Source: Loxodes magnus (taxonomy: Eukaryota > Ciliophora > Karyorelictea > Loxodida > Loxodidae). Taken from it: 64,000 nucleotides of DNA. The stretch lies in contig CAMPDV010000013.1 in NCBI GenBank assembly GCA_946699065.1, positions 1,695,727-1,759,726 of the forward strand, given 5' to 3'. How positions within the stretch are numbered: the first letter of the stretch is position 1; each line of letters starts with the position of its first letter. A model generated the notes under the pieces. That model saw only the letters and a list, made by a program, of their open reading frames with translations. It was not told the DNA's origin and did not search any database. Shown piece by piece: positions 4,130 to 63,484 of the stretch. The position numbers and the translations under genes were made by a program.

Positions 4130-7110
4130 ATAATATAGTTTGCTTAATAGCTTTGAAGTTTTAAGTCTAAACTCAATACACTTCTACTTTTAAGTACTCT
4201 TGAAAATGTTGTAGTATTTCTTCTTGTCTCATTAAGATTAGATTTACTTGTCTTATTTTCATTAAGTTTTAGAAAGAATATATTTGTTTTCATGTTTATT
4301 TTATTCTGCTTCATGTAGATTTTATTATTCTATCAATTTGATTCATATAGTCTTTTTTGCAAAATATTTAATTTATTATGTTTTAATTATATTCTAAGAG
4401 CTCTTTTTCTATATTTTCATAAATATTTTCTTAGTTTATATTATTTTACGCTTTATTTTTGCTTTTAATAATTTTATCTATTTAGGTTTTAATATTATCT
4501 ATACTTTTTTGGTAGTATTTACATTTGAATATGTGTTAGAATGCCTCTTTTTCTTGACATAAGCATTAATCATATTCTTAAGGAATATGTCTTTCTTGAA
4601 GATCACTTCTAAAAAAAAGTAGTTAGGTTCTCAATCTGAATATTAATTTTGATGGTTGCATTTTCTCTTTGTTCAATAAAAAGTAGGTTATAACTGGGAA
4701 TTTTTCTACATTTTTGAATTACTTTGTTATAATTTTTGCTGTGATCATTTCTTTTTTTCTTTTTTTTGTTGTTTTTGTTATTCTCTAAAATGTTTAATTA
4801 AAAAAGTGTTCTTTAATTTTTACATCAATTTTTTTATCGAATTACATCATATTTAGATTTTATAAAGCTTTTAAATCTATTTTAAATTTCTTTTACATTT
4901 TTTTAATTTATTTCTGTTACTAAGTCTTATTTTTTTAACTTATTTAGAATAATTGGATAAACTTTTCATCTTTATTCTTAGATTATTACTATTGATTATA
5001 TAAGTCATTTAGTTTTCTATAAAATTTAAAATATCTTTTTGTAGTTATTTATTCAAATCCAAGTCAGTTAAAATCTATGTGTTGTAACTCATTTCAAGAT
5101 GCTTATGGCATTTTCATATATTATCTTATAATTTATCGTTAACTTACATGTATTTAGTTTTTCACCTTTGCTATTCCAGTTTGTATACTATATGGAATTA
5201 TTTCAGCACCATATTCTAATTTAGGTAGAATAAATAATCTGAATAAATTTTTGAAATTAATTGGGATCGTCTTATTAAATCTGCTGTAAAATTACTATTA
5301 AAATAAGTACTTGGCCTACTAATATTTATTTTGTACTTTTTGTATATGTGTAATTAATTAATTATTCTGATCAATTGTGAATCCTAAATATTCAACAGTT
5401 TTCTTTTATTAAATTAGCTTCCCTTATATTTTCAAATTTAATTTTTTTTAGTTCTCTTATTTCTCTTTACTAATATTAATGCATTCAGTTTTTATTAAGT
5501 TTATTTTTAATTTTATTATATTGAATATTCTTTAAGTTTGATCTATTAATTATTACATTCTTTAAGCGTTGTTGGAGATTAGTAATAAATCGTCAGCTCA
5601 TGCTAATTTTGAGTATTATGTATTTCCTATCTTGTATCCTAATTTATTATATTATTCTAAGTATTACATAGCAATATCATAATAAATTATGGCTAGTATA
5701 GGTCCTGATGAGCTTCCTTAAAGTATACCATTTTTGTAGTCTATTTTTCTAGTGATTTAGTCTTCTAGTTAAAAGTGTATTTGTACTTGAGAATATATGT
5801 TTTTCAATGTTTTTATTAAGTTATCGGCTATTTTAAATCTTTCTAGTTATTTAAAAAGTAAATAGTGATTTATAGAATCAAACATTTTCTCAATATCAAT
5901 CAAGGTAAAAATCAACGATTCATTTTCTTCCTTTTTTTTCTTACTTTCTTAATAATGATTCATTATCTATTATATTTGTATATGTTTATTGTAGTTTGCA
6001 TTTTCTTTATGAATCCTTTTTAGTCTTTATTAATTTGGTTTTACTCAATTACATCTTTATATATATGGTTTGATATTATCTTGTCGAATATTTTTTAGAT
6101 TGTATTTATAATTGCTATTGGTCTATAATTTTTTCAATCATATTTGGAATCTTTTTTATGAATCATTATTATTTTAATTTTATTTAGTTCGGCAGGGATT
6201 AATTAATCGCGTTAGCAGTTTTGATAGAATTTTGTTAAAATTTTTCAAAGTTCATGTCCTGCATATTTAATTAATTCATTTGGTATTTAATCAAAACCTG
6301 CAGCTTTATTATTTGGGAGGTATCTTATTATATCAACAACTTCTTAGTATAATATTTTACTCCATGATTATGCTATTTTTTATTAAAGAATTTTATTTTG
6401 TTTGTAGATTTCATCTATTTTTATTACTTCTTTAAGTATTTCTTATTGATTAGTATCTTTATATTAGTTTAATACACTTTCTCAATTTTTAATAAATTAT
6501 TCTGTCTAATTTGAATTGAGATTCATAATTAGAGCTTTTTTAGGATTGAAAATTTTATTTGCTTGTTTAGCCATTTCCTGGTTATTACCGTTCAAATTTA
6601 TTTATTTTTATCCATTTATATTTTTTCACATGGCATTCTTCATTTTTACGAATTTTTTCTTTTACCCTTTTGCTTCTAATTTCATTTAGATGACTTCATC
6701 ATTCATACGGTTAAATTAGTTTAATTTATTTATATATTATATTCTTGCATTTCTGGCTTTATTCATTTATATCACTACAGATGAAGGCAGTTTTGGTTAA
6801 TTTTACTGTCTTTGATCAAGTATCTCCAGAGCTGCAATATGGATTAAATTTTTAATAAATCTGTATTATAACGATAAATTCAAATTTTATATATTATTTT
6901 CAAAAAAATCATAAGCACCAAGGAATTAGTTTTTATATAATTATAGTTTTTCTTAGTCTTACAGTTTATTTAGATTATATATCATTCTTATTTACTAATT
7001 TTCTGAATTAAATTAATCGTCATTTATTTTAGCATTATATTCTATAATAAGCATATATAATTTAAAATTAAAGTTCTAGATTTTAATACTTATAGAACAG
7101 CTACTATTTC
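4130..7110 (-). mobile_element. LINE (non-LTR retrotransposon) copy 1, 5'-truncated and frameshifted
   Basis: Read on the minus strand with TAA/TAG = Gln and TGA = Trp, this gives a non-LTR reverse transcriptase. In order it has an N-terminal basic helical linker (near 6800-6450), KAAGFDQIPNELI (near 6300), DWKNYRPIAIINT (near 6140), the catalytic segment LIDIEKMFDSI (near 5900), GILQGSSSGPILA (near 5710), the box WADD (5589-5600), KLEYGAEIIPYS (near 5200) and a C-terminal C-x-C...H...C finger (near 4550-4500). Every block has a counterpart in the element at 34.4-38.1 kb, so the two are one family. A frame change lies between the GFIKKMQTT block and the LIDIEKM block (about 5960-5990), and no endonuclease domain is visible upstream. 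It is therefore a dead, 5'-truncated copy. The limits are approximate because flanking AT-rich DNA is also open. Confidence 0.88.
5589..5600 (-). other. RT catalytic box W-A-D-D (TGA-encoded Trp)
   Basis: On the minus strand the codons are TGA GCT GAC GAT, preceded by GCA. This is the position of the usual F/Y-x-D-D polymerase box. The Trp is written TGA, and the second family member has TGG at the same place (35871), so the two copies support both the TGA = Trp reading and the W-x-D-D variant. Confidence 0.85.
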
Positions 7111-8078: not shown

Positions 8079-11000
8079 TCAGTCTTTACTTTTTTTCTAG
8101 TCCTTAGCTTGGTAGCTTTTTTCATCTAAATCTATTTAAAATTGGTCAATCTTCAACTGTTTTAATTTAAATTTTATTTCTTTCTTTAAAGCTTCAGTTT
8201 AATCTTCTGAATTACCAAAATTCTTATTTTCTTCTTCATTTATAGCTGAGAAATTAAGTCAGCTTAAAGTTTGATCTTACTAATAGTTGCTGGTAGAAGA
8301 ACTTATGTCATTTTTATTTTTTAACTATTTATTTTATATTTTCTCTAGATTCTTTTTAATTCTAGTATTTTTACATTCTAACTAATACTGTTACATTGCT
8401 TGCTGTTCTTAGTTCTCATTTACTCTGTCTTCTTATGACTAATTTAAATTATCATTTAGGCTCTTAGCATCTTTAGTTTTTACCAATATAAATTCTTCGT
8501 TACTGTTTAATACTTATTGATTATTTTAAAATTCTTGGTATCTGCTTAAAAACTAGTGAATCCTTTAATTTCAATATTCCTTTTAAGATAAAAATGTTTG
8601 AGTTGAAATTAATTGATAAAGCTCTGCTAGATCAGTATTTATTAAGAGGCATCATTCAATTTACTTTAGAATCTATATTTCTTATCTTACAAAGGTTTAG
8701 CTTAGTTTTGTGCTATGTTTATTTTCTCTGTCGATATTATAATATTCGTCTTCTTTCTATTTTAGCTTTTACTGATCTCTAAATAACAGTCTTATTTTTC
8801 TAATTCATTTATATTCCTTTTTCCTGCTTTTATTTTAGTTTTATTCTCATTGCTATGCTATTTCTACTAAATTTACGTTTCCTTTCAAGCAACTTAGTAT
8901 AAAATACCATTTTAAGTTCTTTATAAATGTTTCCTCTCCATACAAAATAATAAGCTAATAAAGTCATTTTACTATGAAATATCCATTAGCAATTACTAGT
9001 AGAATAAAGGCTAATATGTCTATAGTTAAATATCTTTACCCAGAATCGAAGTAACTTCCTAAATAGAGAGTAAAAACTGAAATAAACAAGTAGTTTAGCT
9101 CTAAGTCATTTAGCTCTTTCTTAATAAAAGGTTTAAACTTTCTTTAGAGTAGAATGCAGATAATTAGAATTAAGGTTAGGCATTAAAACTAAAAGATAAT
9201 GGTAGTTTTCTATAAGAATATGAAGACTAAGGAAATAACTAGCTTTTCATAAATCTTTACAAACTCCCAGTAGTAAAAACTTTCTTTGTAGCCAATTATT
9301 ACAAACCCTAGTTATGATTTTATTAGATGGGATTTTAGTATTTTACGATTCTTGTATAGGTATAAAACTAAAATAAAAGGAACTAGAAATCCATACAGTA
9401 GAAGTCCTGGTAAACCATATGTTAAAACTAATTACAGGTGATCTCCCTTCCAACATTATATATTAGTATACTAATTTAAAACTGACAATTCGTTAGAAAT
9501 GCTATAACAACTGAAAGCACTTAGGATACTCTAAACAACATTGGTGTAGCTTTAAAAATACGAAACAACCATAAAAGTAATAAAGACTGACTTGTTAAAA
9601 TGTTTTCTCCTTAATAAAGATCATATAGTTTATGATAATAGCACTGAAATCAAAACACCCAAAGGAAAAAATAGATTAACCATAATCTTAGTGTAATATC
9701 TTCTTTCTCCTGATCAAAAAAGACAGTCAGATCTAAAAATACTGGAAGTTTCTTAAACATATACTTAGTTTACCTAAAACAAGCCATTTACTGCATCAGG
9801 TCAATCAAATTTAAAATCCTAGATTAAAGTAGAAAATTACATATAGTTAGTTAGTAGTTTAAAATAAATACTCTAATAAGAATCTTTCTTTTTACCTTAA
9901 CTTAGTGTTTAGTACACTAAAAAGATTAAAAAGGCACTAAATACGATTACAGTGATAAAAGCTAACGAAATCTATTATTACTTGCTCGTGCATTTTTAAC
10001 AAATTCTAGCTCTATCTTTAGTCCAATCTTATTCACAAACATCACATAAAATACCTATATGACCTTACTAACAAATTCCTTTTCAATTTACTTTTTCTGT
10101 TTGTTCCCATCTTTTTTAAGCAATTGTAGTTTATAAGTAATTATTTACATAACTAATGCTCAAATAAGACCCTAAGCAAGCTTCTTAATTAGGACATTTA
10201 TGAACTTTTTCTGCTTAGAAACCTTCTCTTCAATATCCTTTTTTAGGTGTAATCAAATCACTTCCTCAACATTATGCTCCTTCCATGCACTCCTTGCAAT
10301 TATAATCATTTTTACTGAAAGAATATTTTCCTTAAAAGCAGTTTTAGCATTAGATACTGTAAATAAGTATTTACCCTTAGAGACATTGCTATACTTGAAT
10401 TTTAAAGTTAAAGTTGTTTGTTATATTAGTACTTTAAGGTAAGTTATCTGCATTAAAAGCATTAGTATCTAGTTGTATTTATATTTGCTACTTCTAATTA
10501 GGATTTACACTTATAACTATATCTGAATAATTGTAAAATCCCTTTTAGGCTATTAAGTTTGTTTATCCTGATAAGCTAGCTTCCTAAGAAGAAATTAAAC
10601 TAAAAGATTCATTTTATGTTCTTACAACTTAGTCAAATATATCCACTATACAAAATTAAACCTTTTCTAAAGGAAATCCTGGTAGCGTATATATTGGTAA
10701 GCTTTATTACTATATCAAAAGTAACTAAATTTAGTTAGTCTAAAGTAATTTTAACGTATAAGCAAAAGCAGCTATATCTTTACCATAATAAGCTTAGTTA
10801 CTTATAAAGTATTATTGGAATTCTTGGTCTTTCATAGCAGGAATAAAAGTAGGTAAAGTACCTGAAAATGAGATAGCTCCTCCTTCACTTGCTTAAGATA
10901 GTATTTAATTATTAATAAAGGAATTATTTATTATTTAGATATGACAATTCTATCTTTTATCACATACTAGTCTTATAGCTCCTCCTTTAGAAATTTATAC

Positions 11001-14000
11001 TTCTTAATCTTAAATTTTATTATTAAAAAAGATGTTTTAATCAAACCTAATATTAGCATTCTAAGCATACCCAGCTCCTCCTTAAATACTAGCTATGTTA
11101 CTTTTAAATATATTATTAGTAAAGTAATAGCTATATTAGACTTAGTCATTCTATATCATAAAGCAAGAACCTTGTTAAGACTGCTAGTATAAGCAACCAC
11201 TATCAGATATGTTTAGTTATGAATTATAAGAATAAATAGCAGATCCATAAAGATTATCACTATGTCCATATATAAAAGTTATATTAGTCAAATTAAGCTA
11301 ACTATTATCAGCTATAGATATAGAAGTATTATAAGAATATGCAAATCTACAGTTTAATATTTTCATTCATGTTCTAGTTACATGTATAGCAGCTCCTATT
11401 ATATTCGCAGCATTCTGCTAAAAAAGTGAGTTTTCAATACTTATATAAGAATAGTCAGAGAAAATCAAACCTCCATATTCATAAGCAAAAGAAAGATTAC
11501 TAGTTAAGTTTTTAATCTAAATTGTAGAATTAAAGCTAAACAGGAATGATCCTTACTAAGAAGTAATGTCAGAAATGGATAAATTCTAAAACTAAATTTC
11601 TGAATTTAAGATGTAAAATATTCCAATCTAGGATGAAGTTTTACCAATTATTAAATCAGTTAGGTTATAATTACTTTCATATAGATAAGCTATACTTCCT
11701 CTCATAGCATAATTTTAGTAAAATTATGAACTGGAAATTTCATTAAAGGAATGGTCAATATTATATAACAAGTACAAAACTCCTCCATCGTAAATAGCGG
11801 TATTCATATAATAATAATTTTGAGAAGCTAAACTGATAAAAGAAAAAAATATTTGGGAAAATCCTCCTGAATCAAATGCCTGATTTTTAATAATTTAATT
11901 CATTACAATTTTTTCTATTTTTGACTTATATAAAAATAAAGCTCCTCCAAAATTAGCTTCATTCTCTTCAATTATGCAGTTAGTGATTTAGTATATTGCT
12001 GAACCTTTTAAAAAAGAAAACCCACCAGAATCGAAAGCCGTATTTTTAGAAACTACAGTAAATTTTATTGTATCAATCTTAGAATTATCTACAACCATAA
12101 CTCCTCCTTAGTTTGCGCTATTTCCTTCAAATTAGCAGCTAATAATTTATAAAATATTTGAATATTGAATTTATGAAAATCCACCAGTCTATTTGGCTTA
12201 GTTTTTAGAAGCATAGGTAAATTTTATTTTTTTTATATTTGAATTATCTAAAAAAAGCGCTCCTCCTTATTATGCTTCGTTTTCTTAAATAGTGCATTAG
12301 GTTATTTAAAGTATATCTGAATTTTTTAAATATGCTAAGCCACCTGAAAATTTCACTTTATTTTGAAAAAAAAGGTTTTATTGTAGTAATTCTACTTTCG
12401 ACTCTTCCAGGTAAAAGACCCCTCCTTAATTAGCATTATTTAGCTCAAAAGAGCAATTTGCTACTATGCTAATATTAGAGAATCATGAATATATAGATCC
12501 ACCCTAATCATTTGCCTTATTTTTAAACATTTAGCTTAAAATTATGTTATCAAAATATGAGTGATCTATCATAAAAGCTCCTCCAGAATCTGCTAAATTT
12601 TCTTAAAATAAGCAATTTGCTATTTGATAAACTTGTGAGTACCATATGTATGCAAATCCACCTGAAAATGAGACTTCATTTTGAAGAATCAAGTTACTTT
12701 CTATTAAATCTACGATTGATGTATCAAGATAAATAGTTCCTCCAAAAGAAGCAGTGTTTTAGAAGAACAAGCAATTCGTTATCTAATAAGCTTTAGAATC
12801 AAAAAGGTATGCAAATCCTCCGTATTTTTGAGCATCGTTTCTTATAATCTAGTTAAAATCTAGTTAAAATATAAAGAGAATTCTAGATATAAAGTTCCTC
12901 CAGATTCTCCATTGTTTTCTTAAAATAAAGTATTTTCCATTCTGTAAATTACTGAATTTAATAGATAAAGAAAGCCTCCTAAAGAAGTAGATCTATTTTT
13001 TACAATTTGACTAAATTTTAGTAGTATAATAGTTGAGTTGCTTATATATAACCCTCCTCCTCCTCAGCTCCAATTTTCTTAAAATAAGCAGTTCGAAATT
13101 AAATTAATTTAGGTATTTAATAAGAAAGCAAAACCACCTAAATTTTATACCTAATTTCCAATAGCTTGATTATATTCTAAAACATCTACTATCGAATCTT
13201 CAATATATAAAGCTCCACCTTAATAAGCAGTATTATTTAAAAATGAGGTATTTAGTATTAAGATCACTATAGAATTTTATGCATATATTGCTCCTCCAAA
13301 CTATTTTGCTTTATTTTATATAAAAATAGTATTTTCTATTTTTAACAATATTGACTTCTGCTTAATTGCAATACTTCCATTTATTGCTTCATTACCTTAA
13401 AAAGTGCATTCTGAAATTATTAAACTGGAATTTTCATTAACAATTCCTCCCTGTAGGTGATCTCCTTTATTATTAATAAATGAACTTTAAATAAAAATAG
13501 CATTGGATTCCAAGCATAGTATCATTCCCCTTTATTCTATAACATTTTCTTAGAATAATGAGTTTTTGATATTTAAATAGGTTTCCTAGCATTTAATTAA
13601 GCTTTCTTTTACAATGACTAATTTAATTATTGTATAGCTTATATTTATTTAGCTTTTTTTGCTTTCAATTATATTATTAATATTTGCCTTTTCATTTCAA
13701 GCATTAAATGGAGTATCTGAACCAACTTGGTTTATATTTTATTCTTAATCTTAATTACCTAATATTTCTACCTTTTCTAGTTAGATAAAGCTGTTTTCTA
13801 AATATATAAATGCTGTATAATTTATATTTATTATTGATAAACTGCCAAATTACACATTAGCACTCATCGCCGATATAAAGTATCTGTTCAAAATACCGTT
13901 TTCCATGCTTTCTTTGATTAGCTACTTCTAAGAAGCTTTTATTCCGTTGAGTGTCAGATTTTTTAATATAAATGCCTCGGATTTTAGTTCTATTTTAAGT

Positions 14001-14416
14001 AGCTAAGTTTCTACTATTATTTCTGCAGTATCTTAGTGATTTAGACACATTTCTTAATACTTAGATGTATCAGAGCAATTTGGGAAAGTTAGAATAGTTA
14101 TATTTTTAGCTGCTTTCCACTGTTTCCCTCCTCTATAAATTTCACAGTTATCAGGACAGTTTTGGCACTTCAAGCAATCAAATAAATGCTAATGAGGAGA
14201 TATAAACACTCTATGAGATTAGCCTTCCTCCAGTTAAAATATTACTTAAGAAATTGATGTTCAAGGAAATTATTAAGTTCCCATAGATTAACTAATTGCT
14301 AGTTTTTCCATGATCTCAGGAGAAGTTACAAAGACGTCAGATCCTTAAGACTTTAAAGAACTAAAGAATAGTAAAATAATAGCAATAAGACTTAAAACTC
14401 TTATTTAGTTTTTCAT
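8079..14416 (-). CDS. Large secreted/transmembrane protein with beta-helix (Pmp-like) repeats; one 11-bp frameshifting duplication
   Basis: The ATG at 14416 starts a hydrophobic signal peptide (MKNQIRVLSLIAIILLFFSS). A short Cys cluster follows (CLKCQNCPDNC, about residue 75). Then comes a very long series of repeats of the type N-x-x-F-x-x-N-x-A-x-x-x-G-G-A/F-x-Y/F, visible on the plus strand as recurring 'gctcctcc' (about 13450-10850). Such repeats form right-handed beta-helices in Pmp-like and pectin-lyase-fold proteins. The C-terminal third (about 9450-8900) holds several membrane helices and the phrases YYWEFVKIYEKL and YGEET, a layout I associate with large ciliate surface proteins. A hydrophilic Q/N/K-rich tail ends at TGA 8079-8081. 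Several internal TGAs fall at Trp-like positions. The reading frame is continuous except for a perfect 11-bp duplication at 12849-12870. Function beyond surface or adhesive structure is unknown. Confidence 0.8.
12849..12870 (-). repeat. Perfect 11-bp direct duplication that shifts the frame
   Basis: CTAGTTAAAAT occurs twice in tandem. GGA-repeat codons upstream (higher coordinates, e.g. 13219, 12901) are in one frame, and those downstream (12821, 10985, and the stop at 8081) are in the frame reached by shifting 11 bases. Removing one copy makes the whole gene a single frame. It could be a mutation, an assembly artefact, or a very short germline-limited insert bounded by a repeat. Confidence 0.85.
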
Positions 14417-24150: not shown

Positions 24151-25600
24151 AGATATGTCGTACTTTGAGCATTTTAATAATAATAATATAATTAATAAAA
24201 ACAATATAACTTATGACCAATAAATTAAGAATTATTTCTGAGAATAAATAAAATGAAAATATGCTCAATGAAAAAATTATTTTTGAAATTAATATATTGC
24301 TTATCTCTTAAAGATTTATAAATTAATATCCAATATCTGATGAGATTTAGCATTTTTTTTTGTAAATGCTGCTAAGCAGCGAATCAAGCCTTGCATAAAT
24401 TTACTTATTACTATAACATTTAATTAATTTACTTTCGTAATTAAATCTACAAGTTATTAATTTTGAGTTATTTTAAGCCTATTTTCATTAATCATACTAC
24501 TTTTTTTACTAAAGAAAATTATATAGTGATAAACTCTAGTAGAAAAATATAAAATTCAAAACGAGAAAGTAAGTAAAAAATAAGATAAAATAATTAGCAA
24601 AAAGTTTTTATATAGTTCTAAAAAATTTGCATTTTTATAATTAAAATAATAAGATTTTATGAGAATAAAAGAATAAAAAATTTAAAATAGTAAAATTAAA
24701 AAAATTAAAAAGTTTTCATTGCTTAGTGTTTTGCTTTATAAGAGATTTGAAGAACAGACAAATCTTTTAAAAAATTCGGAAAAAAAATTTGAATTGAGAA
24801 CTAGAGTGAAAAATAATTTTAGAATAAAAAAATAAAAAAAGTAAGGGAAGAAATGAATTATTAAAAAAATAGTAAAATAAATATTTATAATTTCTAATTT
24901 CAATAATAAAAATATTAAATTTCTAATTTAAAGATGAAAGGTAAAAAAGTTAGAAAAAGAGAAGATAAATTCAAAAAAATATATTTGTTTTTCTCCATAC
25001 TTTATATTATACAAAACTTTCCAACGAACAGAAATTTATATTTTGATTAAAAATAAAGGGTAAAAAATGAATATATAATTAAAAGGCTAAGACTGACAGA
25101 CTTGTTTAATCTTATTTATAATTGATAACGTTTTGACAATCATTAAACACAATAGTTTTTATTATAGAGATGGATTTTAAAAATTTATCACAAATTTTTT
25201 AATATTCATTTCACCTTTCACAATCTTATTTGGACATTTTGAATTTTTTACCACTATTAGTGTTAAATGTAATAGCTATTATTTGGACATTTTATATACA
25301 AATAAAATCAAGATTTAAAAAATTTTGATATTTAACTCAAAGTGTTTCGTTCTCACTACTTTCTTCACATTTCTAAATTGGATAAATAAAATATTAAGCG
25401 TCGTAATTATAAACATAATAAGTTTTATTAAGTCATCCTTACTAAAATAATAAAATCATGCATAAAAAATAGCTATATTATATGAAGAGTTTATCATTTT
25501 CATTATAATTAATTAATTTAAATTAAGCTATCACATATAACATTTGTATTTAAGACATCTATTACTATTTTTACTATGAACTAAATGTAAATTAAGAGTT
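24150..25600. other. AT-rich low-complexity stretch
   Basis: A-rich and T-rich tracts with no recognisable coding motif. One GC-richer hairpin-like spot (GCTGCTAAGCAGC, near 24368-24380) is isolated. Confidence 0.45.
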
Positions 25601-26380
25601 CGCTTTCCCTGGATTTTCAACCAAGTACATGCTGCATAATTTTTTAACGTGATCGTATACCACGACCTTTTTTTATGTGGGTGCTTACCACTATGAATAT
25701 TTAAACGAGCGTATTGGAATCTTTTATTTGTATACACCTTGTTTTGTTATTCAAAATTTGTTCATTTGCTTCATGTTCTTTCTTGTAATTATTAATTCAA
25801 TGTTTTTCAACTTCAGCAGCGATTTATTAAGTATTAACTTGATTAAAAATATAAACACTTTTTATTTTCAAATTAAGATGTTTTTTTGTCGTATTTTTTT
25901 CTCAAGCTTTTTTATTTTTTTAATAAATTTTATTCTTCAAGTTCTATTATTTTTTACGAGTTGAATTGGATTTATTTCTATTTCCATGTTTTGAGTTTAT
26001 TTTGGAATTTTGTTGAGTTTATATTCATAGCTGTTCTTCTGTCAGCAAGTTATTTCGAATTAGTTATTTTCTAAGTAAGAATATCCATTGTATTAATCTT
26101 CAATGTTATTCATAAGCTCACGTATTTTCTCACTTTGATTGAAAATGGTTCCACATAACGTGAGACTAAAGAATATATTTTATCAAGCTGGTATTAGAAA
26201 TCTAAAGGAACTTCCTATTTTGATTCTTTATTATCGATCGGTCCAACCATGACTTTGCCACGTAAAGATGAGTTAGATCTTTCTCGCTAGTTTTCTATTT
26301 TGCGAATTTCTTTAGTCGCTTATCTCCTAGTTTTTTTAGCATAGTTTCTAGAGAGATAAATTTCCTGTTCCATTTTACTA
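25600..26380 (-). mobile_element. LINE 3'-end fragment (copy 3)
   Basis: On the minus strand this matches the 3' part of the LINE at 37.4-38.1 kb. It shares 'gagcttatgaataacattga' (KIRELMNNIED-like, near 26115), NNLLTEEQL, a lysine-rich coiled coil, and the final two hairpins with 'ggttgaaaatccaggg' (25606-25625). A stretch near 25735-25640 reads like the LINE C-terminal basic segment. There is no RT domain, so it is a short 5'-truncated insertion, as expected for target-primed integration. The minus-strand end at about 25600 is the element's 3' terminus. Confidence 0.8.
25608..25664 (-). other. LINE copy 3 terminal hairpin pair
   Basis: On the minus strand, hairpin 1 (25648-25664) is CGTG / GTATACGAT / CACG. 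Hairpin 2 (25608-25625) is CTTGG / TTGAAAAT / CCAGG, with one G-U pair where the 38-kb copy has a Watson-Crick pair. The stem positions vary in a pairing-compatible way relative to the 38-kb copy. Confidence 0.7.
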
Positions 26381-28260
26381 TTCTTTTATTTAATAAATTT
26401 TTTATCTTGAATCTATAACTTCATTTAATTTTAATTTAAATAATAAGAATGAAAAGCAAATACTAAAGCGAAAAAAATGAAAGCTTAATTAATTATTTTA
26501 AATTAATTTTATGAAAGTAGTTTAAGTAAATAATATATATAATATTGATAATAATTAATAATTAATAATTAATAATTTATTCACCTTTTAAAACTGATTA
26601 GAAATTAAAGATAATTAAATAATAAATTTAAAACAAATAATTCAAGTATCATTGTTTTTAATTAAAAAAGAATTAAGGTAAATGATTCAGAAATTATCAT
26701 AAATAAAAAAATAATCATAAGTAAAAAAAAGTTAAAATTATAAAATGTTTTTTGATTAAATAGAATATTTAAAATAAAATCGCAAAATAATTTCAAAAAA
26801 AAATTTTGAGAGAAGCTGTTAATTTTCAAACTGAATTATATCTAAATTATGACTTACAAAAATCTATTTTAAAGAAAAAAGGATTTTTAATGAATGGTTA
26901 GCTCTTTTACATAGACATACGACTTAAAAGCAATTTTAATAACAATATTTTAATTTATTTTAATTTAATTGATAAGGATTAAATATTTATAAAAAAATAA
27001 AATAATAATAGCAAATTTTTTTTAATAAAACATAATTTCTTAACATAATGAAATATTTTGATATTTTTTATGAACAGTCTAGAAATAAAAAAGGAGAGTA
27101 AACGCATTTTTTATTATTTAATATAAATTATGTTAGAAAAATATTAATTAAGTTTTAAATATAAAGTAACTTTTTCCATTAATTATATATATCACATTTT
27201 TTTATAGTCAAATAGGAGACTTATTATCTAAATAACAAATCTAAATTTTTTATTTGATTTTCTAATTTTTTTATGTTTTTTCATTCAATATTTAATTTTT
27301 CTATTTTTTAGTTACAATTTTATATTTATAAAATTTTTCTCTTAAAGATTTTACGAAAAAAATAAACTTGCCTTATTATTTAAAAAACCTAAAAGTTTTT
27401 TATAGTTTATTTCGCTATTTTCCTGATTTTTTCTTTTTTATAATTAATATTAAACTTAAAATGATCGATTATAAAGAAATTTTACGAAGCACATGTTATA
27501 GATTAAATTTAAATAAATTTTTTTGTTCTATCTTAATATTTTGAAATAATTTTTTCTTGTACTTATATTTCTTCAAGTTAAATATTTATTTTATTAAACT
27601 AAAGTAATTTTTTAGAATATATTAAATATTTTCTTTTTTATTCGTTTTAAACCTAAAACGTTTTAAAAAATTTTAAAACTGTTAAACGTTAAGTAAAAAC
27701 CCAATTTTTTTATTTTGTATTATATTAAAAATATAAATATATTGAGAAAATAAAAAAAATAAACTATAACAAAATACAATTTGGTTTTTTTTTCGCAATA
27801 ATTTATAAGAAAAAATGTACTTTAAAAAAGTTAAATCGTAAGTAAGAATCAAGCCAAAAAAATTTAAAAAAAACGTATTTAAAACAACAAATAAAATGAA
27901 ACATCAAAAAAAATTTCTTTAGAAAATATAAAACATGTAAATTATAAATATATCTTCAAATAAAAATGTCTAAATAAAAATTAAAAAAATGTCTAATTAA
28001 AAAAAACGAACAAAAAATGCCAAAGAATAAATAATAAACAAAAAAGATTTCATAATGAAAAACATAAAAAATTAAAAGTAAAAAAATTGAAAAAAAATGA
28101 ATAAAAAATGTAAAAATAAAGCCAAAAAGATTAAAAAAATTAATTAAAAAGCATCAAAAGAAGAAAACTATGTTAAAAAATTAAAAAAAATAAAATTAAA
28201 TAATAAATGAATCTAGAAATTTAAAAAGAATTTTTGAAGATTATATTTTGAAGCATAAGC
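26380..28260. other. AT-rich low-complexity stretch
   Basis: Long runs of A and T with 'aaaaaat'-type motifs on both strands. No gene, RNA or repeat unit is recognised. The base composition is among the most extreme in the window. Confidence 0.5.
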
Positions 28261-32217: not shown

Positions 32218-34432
32218 TCATTGTATTTAGGACTTTGCACTTAGCAGCCTAATAATTGAGTCCAGTTTTACTTCAATTGAGTCAATCTTTTTATCGGTAG
32301 AACTAGTTTGAATTTTAAGGAGTTCGACTTCTTTCATTTTCTCCTCGATAGAATTTACCTTTCCATCAATAGAGCTTGTTTAAGTCTTAAGTATCTCTAT
32401 TTCTTTCACTTTCTCCTCAATAGAACTTGCTTAAATCTTAAGAATCTCTATTTCTTTTGCTGTTTTCTCAAGAAAAGAGATTGTATTATTTTTTCCTTCA
32501 AGAGAATCTATCTTAGTAATTTTTCCTTCTAGAATATCTAATTTATTTGTGTTTTAATCAATTTTTTCGTTGATTTTATCTTCAGTCTTTTTGATGCATT
32601 CTCTTACATCCGCAACTTTTCCTTCCCATCCAAAACCTTCTTCTTGATAGTAATTATCACAAATATGAAGATATTATCCGTTATTTTTTGGATTTCATAA
32701 TGAAAGGATCTGTTCTATCTCAAGAAGAACTTCAGTTTTTTCTCTATAGTCATAATAGACTTGCTAGATTTAAAACTCATCAAAGGAATCTCCTAGAATA
32801 GAGATGATCATATTAAGCATTATCACTACATTTAAAATAATAGCTAAGAGGAATGTAGTATATATTATATCCAATCCTTCCCTATCAAATACTCCTGAAT
32901 CTCCTGCTATCAAATCAAAAGATGAAATTCATAAGCTTTTAAATGAGACTTCTTCACCCTTTGCTGCAATATATAGAAGACCAAATGCTAGTGTGGTATA
33001 AACCATTATAGTAAGGAAGTATCTTATTTTGTAAAAGGAATCTAAAATCAGCTTTATGTAATATCTTGTTTCGTCAAACGATCTAAATGCTGTAATTCCA
33101 CGTAATACGTTCAATAGTAGAAAAATTCAGTTAAATGCTTCTATATAGATATCAAAAGCGCAAAAAAATATCCATGGAATTATGCAAATGATTCTAGTAA
33201 TATCAACTATATTCCAAGCATCCTTAAAATAATCTAATCTAGTTATTCTAATTTAAAGCTATTCCCAAGCAAGCAAACACGCATTTATTAGCACCAATAA
33301 AATCAAGGAAAGGTAAAAAAAACAAAAAGGTTTAATCATCAAAACAACAATAAGAAATAAATTAAGTCATATCAAGCAAGAAATACCAAAGATTATATAT
33401 CATAAGTAATTTCACTTTAAATTAATATAACTTCTTATTATTTTATGTTTGTATAAATCTTTATCTTTTGAGACTAGGAATGAATTTAATAGCTAAATAC
33501 TTTAATCAGATCCAACAACAGAAGGCAGTTTGAATTTAGATGTAGATATTTTAAGATGTTCTTTAGATTAATCATCTATTTATGAATTAGTTTCCTGAGG
33601 TAAATCTCTTTAATAAATACTTTATTCTTAGTTAGCAAAAGGAAGTTTTTACTAAAATAATAAGAAACTTTAGACAAAAAAGTCTGAGAATTTGATGCGA
33701 TAATCTTACTCAACATACCGATAGTCACGAAGATTTTTGTCAAAGTAAAGTAGATTGTTAAGTAAAGAACCCAAAAATGTAGAAGAATTACTTATAATAT
33801 CAGAAAAATCAAGTTATAAAGATAAATATGTAGCTCTTTAGGTTATAAATTCACTATTTTCAAGTTAAGATATGCAATCCAAGATTAAATCAATCGTACT
33901 TTAATGCTAGTAAAAAATAGAATAAAACAAAGGAGAATGGCCAAAAACATCAGACCGCAACTATATCTAATAGTTTTTAAATGCTAATTGTAAAATTTCA
34001 GTTTTTCCTAAAAAGCTACAGAAATGAAGAGGAGTAAATAAAAATTAAGTAAACGTGCAATCTCATGAAAAAATTTATTAAAAATTATCTGAAAACAAAT
34101 TCTATCAAGTAGTTAATAAAGTCAATATGGAAATATTTTGCAAAGGAATAAAATAAAGACCGTACAAAAATTAATAATTTTTAGTGAAATTCGGAATAGA
34201 TACAAACTTGCAAGAAAATTAAGAAAAGAATCTTTAGATGTTTCAGAGTTTTATAGATGAGTCATAAGAAGAGCTAGCGAGTATATTTCCATCTGGACTA
34301 AAGGTAACTTTAGTGACAGTATCTGTATGTCCTTAAAGCGTCATAATTTCTTAATGAGTTTATAGGTTTCATAGTTTTATATTTGAGTCTTCAGAAGAGC
34401 TAGCGAGTGTATTTCCATCTGGACTGACTTTA
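32218..34432 (-). CDS. WD40 - ankyrin-like - 6TM cation-channel - coiled-coil protein, N-terminus missing
   Basis: The minus strand is in one frame for about 735 codons, ending at TGA 32218-32220. In order it has two WD40 blades (SPDGNTLASSSEDSNIKLWN near 34425-34370, then HTDTVTKVTFSPDGNILASS near 34330-34270; both 'KLW' Trp are TGA), an ankyrin-like stretch TPLHFCSFLGKTEILQLAF (near 34035), a linker, and about six hydrophobic helices (33420-32780). The last pair flanks a pore-like loop and ends LNMIISILGDSFDEF (near 32790), the S6 signature of TRP/polycystin-type ion-transport domains. A C-terminal coiled coil contains repeated KTxxSSIDGKVxxIEE units (32480-32260), suggesting oligomerisation. 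The frame reaches the LINE boundary at about 34432 with no start codon or earlier blades, so the gene is 5'-truncated or interrupted there. Confidence 0.85.
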
Positions 34433-34439
34433 TCAATAA

Positions 34440-37400
34440 TTCTATAGTATATTGGGAAAATATAACTCAGAGAAAATATAAAATAAATAGGTTATAAGAT
34501 GCAATAGATAGGCTAAAATATTAAGATATTTCCTACAAACTTATCTAGAATTCTTTTAAATAGATTAAGATAATCTTGAAGATTAATATGAATGCATCAA
34601 AAGTAATATTTAAGACAATGCTGATCAAACATTAGGTTCGTTTATTCCAGACTCAAATTATAACAAACTTCCTCGAGCTCTCACAAAGAAATATATAGAG
34701 GCAAAAAGAGCTAACTCAGAATATAAGGAAGCTCACGTAAAATTTGGAAGAATAAACTAGCAAGTAACTAATCTTCATGAGGAAGCAAAACGACTTTGGA
34801 AAGATTTCAAGTATAATCTATGAAAATTTAAAAAGAACAAAGCAAAAAAGAAATTTCTACTTCTTAATGGAGATTCTAAGGAAATTTTTTCACAAGTTAA
34901 GAAAATTCTAAATCCTTTGAAGAGAAATACTATGAACTTTAATTAAGAAATCAAAAATAAATTCATTGAATCATGGGAAAATTGTGTTTTTAACAAGCAT
35001 TCTAATCTAACTCAAGAATAGATAAATCTTAGTAATTAAAAAATAGATAAAATATACGATAATATTTAAGAAATTAAAGATTATCCACTCTCGTATTTGT
35101 AAGGATTTGATCTTTTTACCATAAAAGAAATATAATAAATTATAAAAGAAATTCCGAATGGAAAAGCAGCTGGTCCAGATGGAATAAAAGGCGAACTTCT
35201 GAAATTTGGTGGATAATATTTATTAATAATTCTTCATTCTTTTCTGAATAATATGCTAAGACTTGGAAGAATCCCTTAGGAATTAAATATATCGGTGATA
35301 ATTCCAATATTTAAAAAAGGAAATAAAGATGATTGGAAAAACTGACTACCTATTTCTCTTATTAATACTATTCTAAAACTATATAATAAAGCTTTAACAA
35401 AAAGAATATACAATCTGATTTATTAGAGAAATTTGATTCACCCTTCATAAATGGGATTTATGAAAAACAGATAAACAACTTAATAAATTTGAATAATATA
35501 ACAAATAATTGATAACTATCGGAAATGTGCTAAAGGTAAGACTAAATTGATAGCAACACTGATAGACGTTGAAAAAATGTTTTACTCAATAGAAAGAAGA
35601 CTCTTGTTTGATTAACTTAAGAGAGTTAAACTACCACTTGGAATAATAATAGCATTAGAATCGCTTTATAAAAACCTAAATTCTTCATTTATCATAGATG
35701 GTAAGAGCACCAGAACTTTATAATTTAACAATGGAGTTATGTAAGGAAGTTCTCATGGACCAGTTTTAGCATTATTGTATTATGACACAGTAATTAGATA
35801 TCTGGAAAGTAAAAGTAACTAATTGGGATTTAAATGCCAGGATTCAAGTATTAGCTTCGCTTGTAAAGGATGGGTAGATGATCTTATTCTTCTTTCCAAA
35901 TCTGCAAAGTAGATGTAGAATTTAATAAATGAAGCAAATAAAGCTTTTGCATGAACACATTTAAAGATTAATGTTACCAAATCCGAATGCATCTAATTTC
36001 TAAAGAAGAATCAGAAATAATAAATTTTAAATTTATGATTAGGAAATTAACCAATTGCTTAAAAAGAACAAGTAACATATTTAGGAGTTATTCTACATTA
36101 GAAGAAGAACTTAAATCCCCATTGCAAAGAAGTTGCATTCAAATATATAGCTGCAATGAAGAAAGCTGTTTTTTAACTGATGAGATATAAGAATGTAACT
36201 CCTTGACATTTTAAAACTTTATGTAGACTTTTTACATTACCTAAAGCAGAATATGGAGGAGACTTAGTACCATGAAGTATTCAAAAAGGAGTAACTGGAG
36301 TTTTGAACAGAATAGAATCAAGCATGAGATTAATTTCAAGAAAAGCTTTTTAAGTAGCAACTTCAACATTTAATGAATCATGTTATATAGACCTGAATTG
36401 ATAACCCTTTAAGCACATTATGGCTATAAAATTCTTCAGATTCTACCATAAAATTAAATAAGAAAGTATTGATTTTCCAAAATCAACAATAGGCTCTCTT
36501 TTCATTAATATATGGAAAAAAGGATTTCAATACTACGATTAAGTGTAGCAATTATCAGACCTTTATAATATCGATCTGCAGAATTAATAGAATAATACCA
36601 ATCTTAAAACTTTTACTAAACATGTAAGAGAAAAAATACAACAATATTTCTACAAAGTAGCTACTAAAAAATTTATGAGGATGAAAACAGCTAAAGTATA
36701 TACTGAATAATTTGGTAATCTTTAACAATTTCCACAAATTACTTATACTAAATTAAACAAATAGTATAGACGAGAAATTATCAGTATATATAAACTTAGA
36801 ACCTAAACTTATAATTTCCGTAAGGATCTTTAAGATCGTCATTACCCAATTGATAATCCCTTTTGTATGTGTGGAGAGTATAAAACTTTCGAGCATATCT
36901 TTAAATGTGTGTACTATTCTAATATAATGAATTGATTATCGGAAAAGATCGGAAATTATGACTTAAGGCGCCTTATACTATACGATCAAGAATATCTAAA
37001 CTCATTTTCAAGGTCTAAATTGGAGAATTTAGACTTATAAATCAAAATATTTCATAAGAAGCTAATGATAAGGAGACTTGAGATTCTAGAAATGGAGAAA
37101 GCAAAAAAGGAAGAAGCTAAAGATGAATAGAAAGAAGAACTAATTAAAGAAAATGATGAAATGTAAACAAGATTAAAAAACTATTTAAAAACATTTACTA
37201 ACGTCTATAATTGAAAGAAGCAATTCTTGCAATTAAAGACGTCAAAAAACTCTTTTAGTTTAAATTTAATTATAAAAAAGATAAATTATAAAGAATTTAT
37301 AGCTAATTAATACAAAGATAAATTATTACAAATAAGTACTTGAAAAAAAATGGAATAATCTATTCGCCTTTCCAAAAACCAAATTAAGAACGCAAAAAGG

Positions 37401-38144
37401 AAAGCTGCGAAACTAATGCAGAAACAATAATAAGAAGAAGATAAATCAAGTTCCTCATCTGAAGGAAAAGTTATAATTGGAACAATAGAGACGAATCCAT
37501 TAAAAGTACAAAAATAATCAGAAATCTAAATATAAATTGACTAAATGAAAACAATAATACAAAATTATTAGGAAACAATTTACAATCAAGGGGAAAAAAT
37601 AAGAGAACTAATGAATACTATCGAAGATTAAAACAACGAGCTACTAATAATAAGACGACAATTGATTTAAAATAATTTAGTCACGGAATAGTAACTATAT
37701 GAATAATCTCAATCGAATTTTAAGCAAGAATAAAATATGATTATTGAAAAAGTTTCTACATAAGCAAACATCCAAGAAAAATAGAATGACGAAAAGATTA
37801 ATATAGAATTACTCCAAAGAATCGATTAACTTGAAAAAAAGTATTTCTGAAGAGATTCAAGAAAAGACCAATCAAAAATTGCTATTATTGCAAATCAAAG
37901 TGACACCTATTACAAAATTGCGATCAGTGAAGATAAATTTAGATGAAAGAACAACAAAGAACGTTAAGAATGCTTAGCAGACTCTGAATCACCGAAACGG
38001 GAATTTACAAGAAGAAGATATTCGTATAAAAGACAGAAGATTCTCAGTGGTTCCATCCACAAAAAAAATGGCGTGGTATCCATCCACGCTAAAAAAAATG
38101 GTAGCAAAAGCCTGGTTGAAAATCCAGGGAATGCTAAACTTTAA
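34440..38144 (+). CDS. LINE reverse transcriptase with long C-terminal coiled-coil extension
   Basis: The frame stays open for more than 1200 codons with TAA/TAG = Gln and TGA = Trp. It has a basic helical N-terminal linker, NGKAAGPDGIKGELLKFG (near 35160), DDWKNWLPISLINT with TGA Trp (near 35330), QMGFMKNRQTTQQ (near 35450), catalytic LIDVEKMFYSI (near 35560), GVMQGSSHGPVLALLYYD (near 35735), the polymerase box WVDD (35871-35882), KAEYGGDLVPWS (near 36245) and a C-terminal finger CMCGEYKTFEHIFKC (36864-36908), typical of non-LTR elements. After the finger come long Lys/Glu- and Gln-rich helices, including QMKTIIQNYQETIYNQGEKI (near 37540), and a basic tail. The true stop is uncertain. Either the frame reads through the 3' hairpins or an earlier TGA terminates it. 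Confidence 0.85.
35871..35882 (+). other. RT catalytic box W-V-D-D
   Basis: The codons are TGG GTA GAT GAT, preceded by GGA. Both Asp residues expected in the polymerase box are present, and the usual aromatic F/Y before them is Trp. The QG pair upstream is encoded by TAA GGA at 35742-35747. Confidence 0.9.
38071..38128 (+). other. LINE copy 2 terminal hairpin pair
   Basis: Hairpin 1 at 38071-38089 is GCGTGG / TATCCAT / CCACGC. Hairpin 2 at 38111-38128 is CCTGG / TTGAAAAT / CCAGG. Upstream is a partly duplicated 'ggttccatccac-aaaaaaaatgg' (38049-38100). The same pair, with changed stems, closes the copies at 25.6 kb and 21.3 kb. RT recognition of a 3' stem-loop is known for several LINE clades. 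Confidence 0.75.
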
Positions 38145-38470
38145 TTACTTTTAGTTTACTATTATAATTATTACAAATAAGTGACTATTATTGAACTGAT
38201 ACTAGAGACAAAGCTAATATGCTTATATAATTTATTTAGATATTAAGATAGTTAAAAGATAATAAATTATGGAAAAATTTGAGAATCGAAATGAGATATC
38301 TTTACTAATTAAATTTTGAATATAATATAATAGACTTGATTTAAGATTATTTAAAATAAACTTAATAAAATATAAAGAAATAAAGTAATCTATTTATTTT
38401 TAATAAGTTTTAAATATTATTTTTAGATTAAAAGCATTTAAATTCAATTTATTATATATATAATTTATTT
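38144..38470. other. AT-rich spacer after the LINE
   Basis: No coding motif is recognised. The missing WD40 blades of the channel gene were looked for here on the minus strand and not found. Confidence 0.45.
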
Positions 38471-42854: not shown

Positions 42855-42927
42855 CAGCCTTGGTGGGATTCGAACCCACAACCCTCAGCTTAGAAGGCTG
42901 ATACGCTAACCGTTGCGCCACAAGGCT
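42855..42927 (-). tRNA. tRNA-Arg (anticodon TCT)
   Basis: The minus strand folds as a complete 73-nt cloverleaf without an intron. The 7-bp acceptor is AGCCTTG/CAAGGCT with discriminator G, the D-arm is GGCGCAACGGTTAGCGTA-like, the anticodon stem is TCAGC/GCTGA with loop CTTCTAA (anticodon TCT), and the T-arm carries GTTCGAATC. A T-run follows the 3' end (GTTTT), consistent with a Pol III terminator. All stems are fully paired, so it is probably functional, unlike many neighbours. Confidence 0.95.
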
Positions 42928-59111: not shown

Positions 59112-61479
59112 ATGGATAACAATCAGTGTCCAAACTGTAAAAAGCAATTCGATTTAGACGAGAGAGTATCTAAGCAAATACCTTGCGGCTGCATTTCATG
59201 TTTAAATTGTCTTAAAACAGTATACTAATTTTATTAAGAAATCAAATGCAAAGTGCATAACTAAGTCTTTAACATTAATCCTGAAGTGTTGCGAGGATAA
59301 TTAGTTTAATTACAAGTCCAGTAAGAAGTACCGCAGCAATAAGAAACAATAATTGATCAAATGTAAATCATTGAGTTGTTTAAGTGGATAAAAGACTATC
59401 AAGGCAAGAATTAGAAAGAATATAATAAGATAAAGGAAGTTATTTAGAACGTTGCTTAATTTATGCATAATATCTAGGCTCTATCGTTTCGTCAGTTATT
59501 GAAGATTTTATTAGAATAGTTTGCTAGTAATAGCAGTAAAGTTTAAAATTTATTGAATCGTTTAACTGAGCTTCAAGCAGCAAATCAGTTGCAATAAGAT
59601 TAAGCATAAAGAACAGGTTAGTAATAAGAAAATTAAAACCAAATTGGTCAAGTCTAAGAATAGTTTTAGTAAATCCTGCGAGAGTTAGATGAGTTAAAGA
59701 AAGAACAGAACTAACAATTAGACATTTCATTTCTAAGAAATAATATATAGGCATGCATGTTCAATTTTTTCACATATTTAACTGAGAATACATAAGATCA
59801 GTAATTAACGTTGAATAAAGCAGAGTAATCAGCCTAAAAGTTTTTCAAGAAATTTAAGTTTGCAAAAGGACTTATTTAGTAATAAATTCCTGTTATGTAA
59901 TAAAAAAGTAAGGTAAAACCTTAAAATACCGAGCTTCAAATTAAATAAGAGAGTTAGTTTATCCCTTAATAATAATAAGATCAAATAATTACTTAAAAAT
60001 AAAGACAAGATATCGTGCAAGCTAAAGAATATACAATCAAGTTAGATATAGAGCAGAAGTAAAGATAAATCATCGACGCCAGATCTTTAGTATCAGCAAT
60101 GGAATAAAAGTTTAAAAATCTTTCAAATAATTACAAATTCGATAACCGAGTAATCTAAGTTTGCTAATAGTAAGCAAACTTAATTATGCCTATTATTCCA
60201 AGTCCCCCTAAACAATTTCTTAATAACTAACTATTTTTCAGCAATTAGAACTTCTCAATCACCGACCTATCTAATGCTGATTTATCAGATAACACCTTCA
60301 CAAATTGTAATTTCTCCAACTCAAACCTAACATCAACCAACTTTCGTAACACCAAGTTCATCAACTGCGACCTCTCAAACGCTAACCTCTCATCAATCAT
60401 AACTGAATACCCACACATATACACTGGACACTCCGACTCAGTCACCTCCGTGGCCATCTCTTCAGATGCCAATTTAATAGTTTCTGGATCTGATGACAAT
60501 ACTCTTCGACTCTACAACATAGCCACAGGTACCTGTAAGACCATGAGTGGTCACACCAATTCTGTAGATCTGTGGCTATATCCAGTGATTCAGAGTTCAT
60601 CGTATCGGGAAGTGATGACACTACTCTTAGACTATACAACGTCAAGACAGGTACCTGTAAGACCATGAGTGGTCACACTAGTTCTGTATGATCTGTGGCT
60701 GTATCCAGTGATTCAGAGTTCATCGTATCGGGAAGTACTGATGAGACGGTGAGACTATGGGACGTCAAGACAGGTACCTGTAAGACCATGAGTGGTCACA
60801 CCAATTCTGTAAGATCTGTGGCTATATCCAGTGATTCAGAGTTCATCGTATCGGGAAGTGCATGATTATACGGTGAGACTATGGGACGTCAAGACAGTTA
60901 CCTGTAAGACCATGAGTGGTCACACTAATTGTGTATCATGCTGTGGCTATATCTAGTGATTCCACTTACATCATATCTGGATCTTCTGACAAAACTATTC
61001 GTTTATGGAATTCAAGAACTTAATAATGTACCAAGGTCTTATCGGGACATACCTCTGATTCTGTCTTATCGGTAATATTCTCAAGTAACAACAAGTATAT
61101 CTTATCTGGATCTAAGGACAAGTCAATAAGAATATGAAATATCAATAATGGATAGTGTGAATGTGTACTATAGGGTCATACAGACACTGTGGGTAGTTTA
61201 TCATTATCTAGGGACAACAATTGGTTGGTATCAAGCAATGGAAGTTTCTGATATGATCCAAATAAATCAAGTGATTACAACATCCGAAGATGGAACTTAG
61301 GAAGGATATTGAATGGAGTAGACACTATCAACTAACAACAGGTAAGTTTAAATCTACCAACAATTATTTAGTAGACTGACTGGAACAAAGTATATGATGA
61401 CTATGGCTTAAGATTTTAGAATTGCGTAATGGCTAATATTACAATGAGTGTGGAGGACAAATAGAGATACATCAAGTGA
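59112..61479 (+). CDS. RING-like - coiled coil - pentapeptide - WD40 protein with three small frameshifts
   Basis: The ATG at 59112 opens a Cys-rich RING-like finger CPNCKKQF...PCGCISCLNCL...CKVH (59124-59262), in which the usual His after the third Cys is Cys. About 300 residues of Gln-rich coiled coil follow. Pentapeptide repeats (LSNADLSDNTFTNCNFSNSN, 60260-60400) lead into about seven WD40 blades ending at TGA 61477. RING-coiled-coil-WD40 proteins are often E3 ubiquitin ligase scaffolds. Four middle blades are nearly identical 120-bp DNA repeats (60525-60950). Relative to them, one base is missing at about 60566, and one extra base occurs near 60860 and near 60935, so the frame breaks and is not restored by these three changes. 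Trp is TGA at 60688, 61138 and 61250. The rest of the gene is intact, so sequencing error, recent decay or frame correction are all possible. Confidence 0.85.
60525..60950 (+). repeat. Homogeneous tandem WD40 repeat units
   Basis: The 'acctgtaagaccatgagtgg' block recurs at 60532, 60652, 60777 and 60900, with nearly identical sequence between. Outer blades of the same gene are diverged, so the four central units arose by recent duplication or gene conversion. All three indels fall inside this block. Confidence 0.9.
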
Positions 61480-61689: not shown

Positions 61690-62165
61690 GTTAGAGAAAT
61701 TTTAAAATTTTTCAGTGTTAGAAAATTTTTCGAGCTATTTAATAAAGTTAAAAAGCTTTAAATTTAAAAGTGTTATGAAATTTTTTTTTTCAGGAGTATG
61801 TACTAGTCAAAAAATTTTAAATTTTCTAGTCTTAGTAAAATTTTTGAGGTATGTACTGGATTAAAAAAATTTTAAATTTTCCAGTGTCAGAAAAATTTTT
61901 GAAGTAAGTACTAGAGTTAAAAAAATTATTAAATTTTCCAGTGTCAGAAAAATTTTTGAAGTACGTACTAGAGTAAAAATAATTAAATTTTTCCGGCGTT
62001 AGGAAAAATTTTTGAGGTATATGCTCAGCTAAAAAATTCTAAATTTTCAAGTGTTTGAAAAATTTTTGAGTGATGTGCTAGAGATAAAATTTTTTAATTT
62101 TATATTATAGTTTTAGAAAATTTTTTGAGTTGCGTGCTAGCGCAAAATTTTTTTTAAATTTGTTA
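61690..62165. repeat. ~60-bp tandem satellite downstream of the WD40 gene
   Basis: A unit like 'aaattttccagtgtcagaaa aatttttgaagta' plus 'tactagagtaaaaa' recurs about eight times (near 61705, 61770, 61825, 61880, 61935, 61995, 62045 and 62100). Copies diverge mainly at the edges of the array. Confidence 0.8.
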
Positions 62166-62480: not shown

Positions 62481-62494
62481 TATTTTAGTTTTTT

Positions 62495-62692
62495 TTTTGA
62501 ATATTGGTTTTGAATTTTTTTGATTTTGGTTTTGAAGTTTTTTGATTTTGGTTTTGAATCTTTTTGATTTTGGTTTTGAATTTTTTTGATTTTGGTTTTG
62601 GTTTTGAAGTTTTTTGATTTTGGTTTTGAATCTTTTTGATTTTGGTTTTGAATTTTTTTGATTTTGGTTTTGAATTTTTTTGATTTTGGCGC
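62495..62692. repeat. 21-bp tandem array (ttttgattttggttttgaa)
   Basis: About nine units of 'tttttttgattttggttttg aa', with one unit carrying an extra 'ttttgg'. The minus strand reads as K/Q/N-rich peptide repeats, but there is no reason to think it is coding. Confidence 0.9.
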
Positions 62693-63439: not shown

Positions 63440-63484
63440 AGAAGTAGCAGTAAGATATTCATTTAGCTTAAAAATAATTTAAAA

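Follow-up and report, generated by a model that had tools for sequence, protein, structure and literature searches.

In the ciliate code of table 6, TAA and TAG encode Gln and TGA is the stop codon. The codes of karyorelict ciliates were reportedly surveyed by Seah et al. in 2022. Here, we analyzed a 64-kb stretch of DNA (in the following called the window) for the meaning of TAA, TAG and TGA in its genes. The closest described systems are karyorelicts, which use table 27 according to the pertinent sections of PMC11441545, where the 3′ untranslated regions (3′-UTRs) of Loxodes magnus are characterized as short and AT-rich. The same sections give, for Loxodes, a GC content of 33.5% in coding sequences and 18.6% in 3′-UTRs, and about 2,700 RVT_1 copies. 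In a passage of PMC6935857, Loxodes and other karyorelicts are listed with UAR as Gln and UGA as stop; UGA as Trp is not mentioned in that passage. For Condylostoma magnum and a Parduczia, the relevant part of Swart et al. 2016 (PMC4967479) reports the same sense meanings of these codons as considered here, with UGA present at those stop positions of Parduczia that were inspected, and a UGA usage of 0.120% of codons in Parduczia and 0.042% in C. magnum.

The genes of the window most likely follow a real, already published code of the karyorelict type; the code itself is not new, since both table 27 and table 28, the Condylostoma code, have been published. With considerable confidence, we interpret the window as ciliate nuclear DNA from the karyorelict/heterotrich branch, most likely from a karyorelict such as Loxodes, read with table 27, in whose genes UAA and UAG would be read as Gln, and UGA would be read as Trp within genes and as a stop at gene ends.

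TGA and TAA codons in conserved protein families

The window is AT-rich, with 19–29% GC across its length in 4-kb steps, and under the standard code its longest open stretch is 139 codons. A previous sequence-only reading had proposed that an unusual code explains the near-empty result of ordinary calling of open reading frames. This agrees with our analysis: such calling yields only short frames because TGA, TAA and, very probably, TAG are read as amino acids.

We gathered relatives for three protein families (channel, reverse transcriptase (RT) and WD40) and scored the window against profiles made from the relatives only, after each TAA, TAG and TGA had been replaced by X. Table 28 was used for the frames and database queries by which relatives were found, and codon-usage self-training served frame finding only. 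The RT profile contained 32 relatives; for WD40, repeats with a fixed Trp formed the starting set, and the profile was rebuilt on 880 aligned rows taken from 120 proteins, the best of 196 matches. Together, the pooled profiles comprised 2338 aligned codons, those with a posterior of at least 7 being counted. Codons with a posterior below 7 were left out of this count, as were the channel-profile matches at 60.4–61.2 kb and 22.9 kb, both of which the WD40 profile covers, and the profile test did not include the repeat-rich gene at 8–14 kb. Calibrated on sense codons, the procedure returned the correct residue in 45 of 61 cases in total, in 36 of 37 at a margin of at least 5 bits and in all 32 at a margin of at least 10 bits.

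In the pooled profiles, TGA (24 codons) scored 36.4 bits for Trp versus 5.9 for the next residue, a margin of 30.5 bits. For TAA (83 codons), Gln reached 64.8 bits versus 31.5 for the next residue and 9.0 for Glu, with a margin of 33.4 bits over the former. All nine codons aligned to columns with a profile probability of Gln, p(Q), of at least 0.3 are TAA (eight) or TAG (one), and at p(Q) ≥0.5 all five are TAA. Family alignments had been named beforehand as a possible refutation of the reassignment; they favor Trp at TGA and Gln at TAA. As judged from these masked alignments, TGA is a Trp codon and TAA is a Gln codon. TAG probably encodes Gln as well, which is the best joint reading, less strongly supported than the other two assignments. 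The initial proposal, in which TAA, TAG and TGA are all read as sense, was confirmed for TGA and TAA and is probable for TAG. The range given for it, 32218..36000, includes the whole channel gene and takes in one RT copy in part; the evidence extends over about 4.5–61.5 kb.

Taken by family, TGA scored 33.8 bits for Trp versus 3.2 for the next residue with the channel relatives (8 codons) and 15.3 versus 2.4 bits with WD40 (4 codons). The channel family carries the argument because the Trp column of the WD40 profile, at 0.89, is possibly inflated.

The gene in question, encoding WD40, ion-channel and coiled-coil parts (32218..34434, − strand; called the channel gene below), runs through 738 codons in one frame and then meets a TGA. 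It contains 10 internal TGA, 4 TGG, 29 TAA and 8 TAG codons. Two WD40 repeats (WD40, E-value 1.6e-18) are followed by a stretch aligned to ion-transport proteins and by a tail that was judged by eye to be a coiled coil. Local identity to the 16 relatives is 35–48%; three of them are named as Stentor coeruleus, and Stentor is listed with the standard code in part of PMC6935857. At 11 of the 645 columns covered by at least eight relatives, Trp is found in at least half of them, and the window codon is TGA at seven and TGG at four of these. Seven of the gene's 11 TGA codons, counted with the end codon, thus fall into these 11 columns (hypergeometric P = 1.2e-11), counted over relatives that are not independent, several being near-duplicates in the alignment. 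A stricter count, restricted to the five columns with a profile probability of Trp, p(W), of at least 0.5, places 3 of 10 TGA codons and two TGG codons there (P = 3.0e-5).

All seven sites lie on the − strand. The TGA codons at 34369–34371 and 34243–34245 occupy WD40 terminal Trp columns, where 9 and 11 of 12 relatives, respectively, have Trp, just as had been proposed for two terminal Trp positions in this gene. Those at 33412–33414 and 32929–32931 stand in invariant channel-domain columns with Trp in 16 of 16 relatives, followed by 33127–33129 (15 of 16) and 33367–33369 (13 of 16). In the seventh column, at 34063–34065, half of the relatives (6 of 12) have Trp, none of the three Stentor proteins being among them; at the other six columns all three have Trp. 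The gene also carries a TAA at 32770–32772 in an invariant Gln column (DSFDEFQ, Q555; p(Q) 0.69). For the use of TGA as Trp in a conserved gene, the window provides a clear worked example.

It is extremely improbable, and already nearly excluded, that the window follows table 6 and that its TGA codons are nonsense mutations in dead genes. Several window genes do have frame changes, WD40 repeats in the channel gene number only two, and TGG becomes TGA by one transition. Yet most of the 738 channel codons are matched in a single frame, in which 7 of the 11 conserved Trp positions are TGA and 4 are still TGG, RT copy 1 bears 13 TGA codons in one frame, and one TGA site is common to two RT copies that are 36–38% identical.

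Reverse transcriptase copies

Copy 1, a frame of the type found in retrotransposons without long terminal repeats (non-LTR; 34560..38009, + strand), was recognized by RVT_1 with an E-value of 5.6e-27 and matched in one frame; its ends are candidates. The 1150 codons counted include 13 TGA, 52 TAA and 14 TAG. Copy 2 (4479..7015, − strand) shares the 36–38% identity with copy 1 mentioned above and has one frame change near 5976, where no GT..AG stretch of 15–30 nt was found. Of copy 3 (25474..26415, − strand; 26% identical), only the C-terminal part is present.

A TAA at 35742..35744 (+ strand) occupies the Gln column of RT motif B (p(Q) 0.77), and another at 35448..35450 (+ strand) a second conserved Gln column (p(Q) 0.67); in copy 2, the TAA codons at 5718 and 6020 (− strand) stand in the same two columns. 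The QG pair had been read as TAA GGA in two copies of a long interspersed nuclear element (LINE), and we recovered both, at 35742 (+) and 5718 (−). The best single site for TAG as Gln is 35916..35918 (+ strand), in a Gln-rich column (profile Q 0.33, next E 0.09).

The aligned RT copies comprise 849 codon pairs, 16 of them with TGA. The partner of TGA is TGG in three pairs (expected 0.1), TGA in both copies in one, Tyr in three, and Asn, Ile, Lys, Leu, Phe or Asp in nine. A motif NW-LPIS had also been put forward, with TGA as Trp. The TGA is indeed present, at 35343, and R2 proteins of solved structure have Trp at this position; among the 32 relatives, though, the column is Tyr at 0.50 and Trp at 0.007, so that the conserved Trp did not hold up.

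At 34434–34560, about 125 bp lie between the point where the channel gene's WD40 repeats stop and the start of the RT frame, which is on the opposite strand. The RT element may be a 5′-truncated LINE inserted in the channel gene. Pfam detected no endonuclease domain in 34200–38399, and no WD40 match was found on the − strand of 38.4–48.4 kb. Past the RT frame, three short GC-rich inverted repeats lie at 38047, 38073 and 38111 (38047–38128), twice GTGG...CCAC and then CCTGG...CCAGG, possibly a 3′ structure of the RT element.

Candidate gene ends and the choice between table 27 and table 28

Three candidate gene ends were picked by eye from the coding signal. The channel gene would stop at the TGA at 32218–32220 (− strand), with a TAA 3 codons upstream and the nearest in-frame TGA 159 codons upstream. 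A long repeat-rich gene (8079..14350, − strand) has its candidate stop TGA at 8079–8081, the nearest TAA or TAG lying 6 and the nearest TGA 60 codons upstream. For a pentapeptide/WD40 gene (60250..61479, + strand), the candidate is the TGA at 61477–61479, preceded by a TAG at 5 and a TGA at 76 codons. From the last 300 nt to the following 53 nt, GC falls from 0.30 to 0.13 at 32218, from 0.23 to 0.19 at 8079 and from 0.34 to 0.11 at 61477. That TGA ends three genes had been asserted before, without coordinates; these three sites are putative TGA ends.

Because TAA or TAG stands in frame 3–6 codons before the candidate TGA ends, table 27 is favored over table 28. The sequence-only reading had named both codes, and the choice between them leans toward the karyorelict code. 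UGA would then be the only stop codon, and closeness to the mRNA 3′ end, a published mechanism, would set whether it is read as stop or as sense.

Under table 28, all three codons would be sense codons and all three would be able to stop translation near the mRNA 3′ end, in DNA from a heterotrich source. An earlier stop would be expected in this case, given the TAA and TAG codons shortly before the three TGA ends, themselves picked by eye, and the UGA usage of 0.042% in the part of PMC4967479 on C. magnum contrasts with the 10 TGA found among the 738 channel codons. We consider table 28 unlikely, even though its sense meanings are identical to those of table 27, so that the Trp and Gln alignments fit it equally, and the only named channel relatives (3 of 16) are from the heterotrich Stentor, which is, however, expected for either sister class.

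A number of observations weigh against the table 27 interpretation. In the channel gene, 3 of the 10 internal TGA codons lie off Trp, in a Leu/Ile column, in a mixed column (Trp in 1 of 16 relatives, a Stentor protein) and in a Phe/Val/Ile column. The RT family alone gave no clear residue for TGA (13 codons), the best being His at 0.8 bits, and the eight RT codons aligned to columns with p(W) ≥0.3 include neither TGA nor TGG. At the candidate gene ends, the drop in GC at 8079 is small; TAA codons stand at a distance of 3 codons ahead of 32218 and of 19 codons ahead of 8079, despite the depletion of UAA over about 20 codons before stops that sections of PMC11441545 report for Loxodes. Finally, the pooled profiles scored TAG (18 codons) at 15.8 bits for Lys versus 13.3 for Gln, with Lys ahead by 2.5 bits.

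As a test of TGA, the RT family proved uninformative, its profile giving no clear residue; it is not to be leaned on here because TGA and TGG are both absent from its Trp columns in this element and the NW-LPIS column is half Tyr.

The profile call for TAG is unreliable because calibration calls were reliable only at margins larger than its 2.5 bits. Split codes in which UAA and UAG differ are known, as described in part of PMC10553269, and TAG might likewise differ from TAA in the window, as it does in certain other ciliates, and mean for example Lys or Glu; this would agree with the Lys score and with the Glu found opposite TAG in 3 of 18 pairs of the RT copies. We regard such a split as highly improbable: in the same 18 pairs, Lys is never the partner of TAG and CAA or CAG is so three times (expected 0.5), and the sole clear TAG column, at 35916, is a Gln column.

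We retain table 27 as the preferred reading, and annotation of the contig should use this table or a gene finder that allows UGA both as Trp and as stop.

Further features of the window and comparison with known codes

The pentapeptide/WD40 gene contains an array in three frames and a TGA at 61135–61137 in the WD40 terminal Trp column, in line with the terminal Trp previously assigned to a TGA at 61138. A second such assignment, at 60688, was not upheld: the TGA concerned, at 60689–60691, stands in the variable profile column 7 (Asn/Thr/Lys/Ser; p(W) 0.04), and sibling repeats have AGA or ACC at its position. This codon is part of a tandem WD40 array with a 123-bp unit at 60525–60962 (3.6 copies, 90% matches). 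Its copies are spread over three frames through single-base differences, near 60566, 60862 and 60938, from one sibling repeat to another. These frame changes may reflect a pseudogene, sequencing error or recent decay, between which our data do not distinguish.

In the repeat-rich gene, Pfam Chlam_PMP scored above its cut-off in two pieces (E-values 4.2e-5 and 2e-6), with no single stretch significant. Its frame changes near 12850, where an 11-bp duplication at 12842–12870 (− strand) shifts the frame and no GT..AG stretch of 15–30 nt was found. An isolated WD40 repeat at 22875–22974 (+ strand) has TGT at the terminal Trp position, and the preceding sequence appears pentapeptide-like by eye. More tandem arrays lie at 61697–62101, at 62492–62689 and at 63483–64000, the last with an 80-bp unit (6.5 copies, 91% matches) and running to the window end.

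Pfam searches in three frames each of the + strand at 38.4–58.4 kb and the − strand at 38.4–48.4 kb returned one match, PulS_OutS, below its cut-off, and two − strand frames of 57–64 kb returned none. The searches also covered the − strand at 24.6–34.6 kb and the + strand at 59–64 kb, again in three frames each, plus chosen pieces elsewhere; two baculovirus families appeared in them, both below their cut-offs. Scans of genome contigs and viral contigs for relatives found none. With ARAGORN and Rfam, no Trp or Gln tRNA and no rRNA family match was detected in the window, where a tRNA-Arg(TCT) at 42855–42927 (− strand) is the sole RNA family match above the gathering score.

Compared with known systems, the Blastocrithidia code shares TGA as Trp with the window and, in the section of PMC12153298 describing it, reads TAA and TAG as Glu. 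For TAA in the window, Gln outscores Glu (64.8 versus 9.0 bits); TAG alone is compatible with Glu. Table 6 agrees with the window in TAA and, probably, TAG as Gln and differs in TGA, which is Trp in the window and not only the stop given for it in the passage of PMC6935857; UGA is not only a stop in the window genes. Condylostoma magnum, with table 28, has, in the excerpted account of PMC4967479, the three sense meanings preferred for the window. All three codons are also stops there, whereas the window has in-frame TAA or TAG shortly upstream of three candidate TGA ends.

Coding TGA is frequent in the window, making up 10 of the 738 channel codons and 13 of the 1150 counted for RT copy 1. This load contrasts with the 0.120% given for Parduczia in the section of PMC4967479 on codon usage, and against the Parduczia and C. 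magnum figures it is of mild interest. There is a lesser chance that the source is a karyorelict not yet described, with AT-rich DNA, in which Trp is mainly encoded by UGA, as at 7 of the 11 conserved Trp sites in the channel gene, and UGA is nevertheless the only stop; its load of ambiguous UGA would be far above that published for Parduczia and Condylostoma. Loxodes, as portrayed in parts of PMC11441545, resembles the window in its AT-rich DNA with LINE copies. Table 27, as outlined for Parduczia and Loxodes in the portions of the literature cited above, showed no difference here and agrees with the window in UAA and, probably, UAG as Gln, in UGA as Trp and in UGA at the candidate gene ends.

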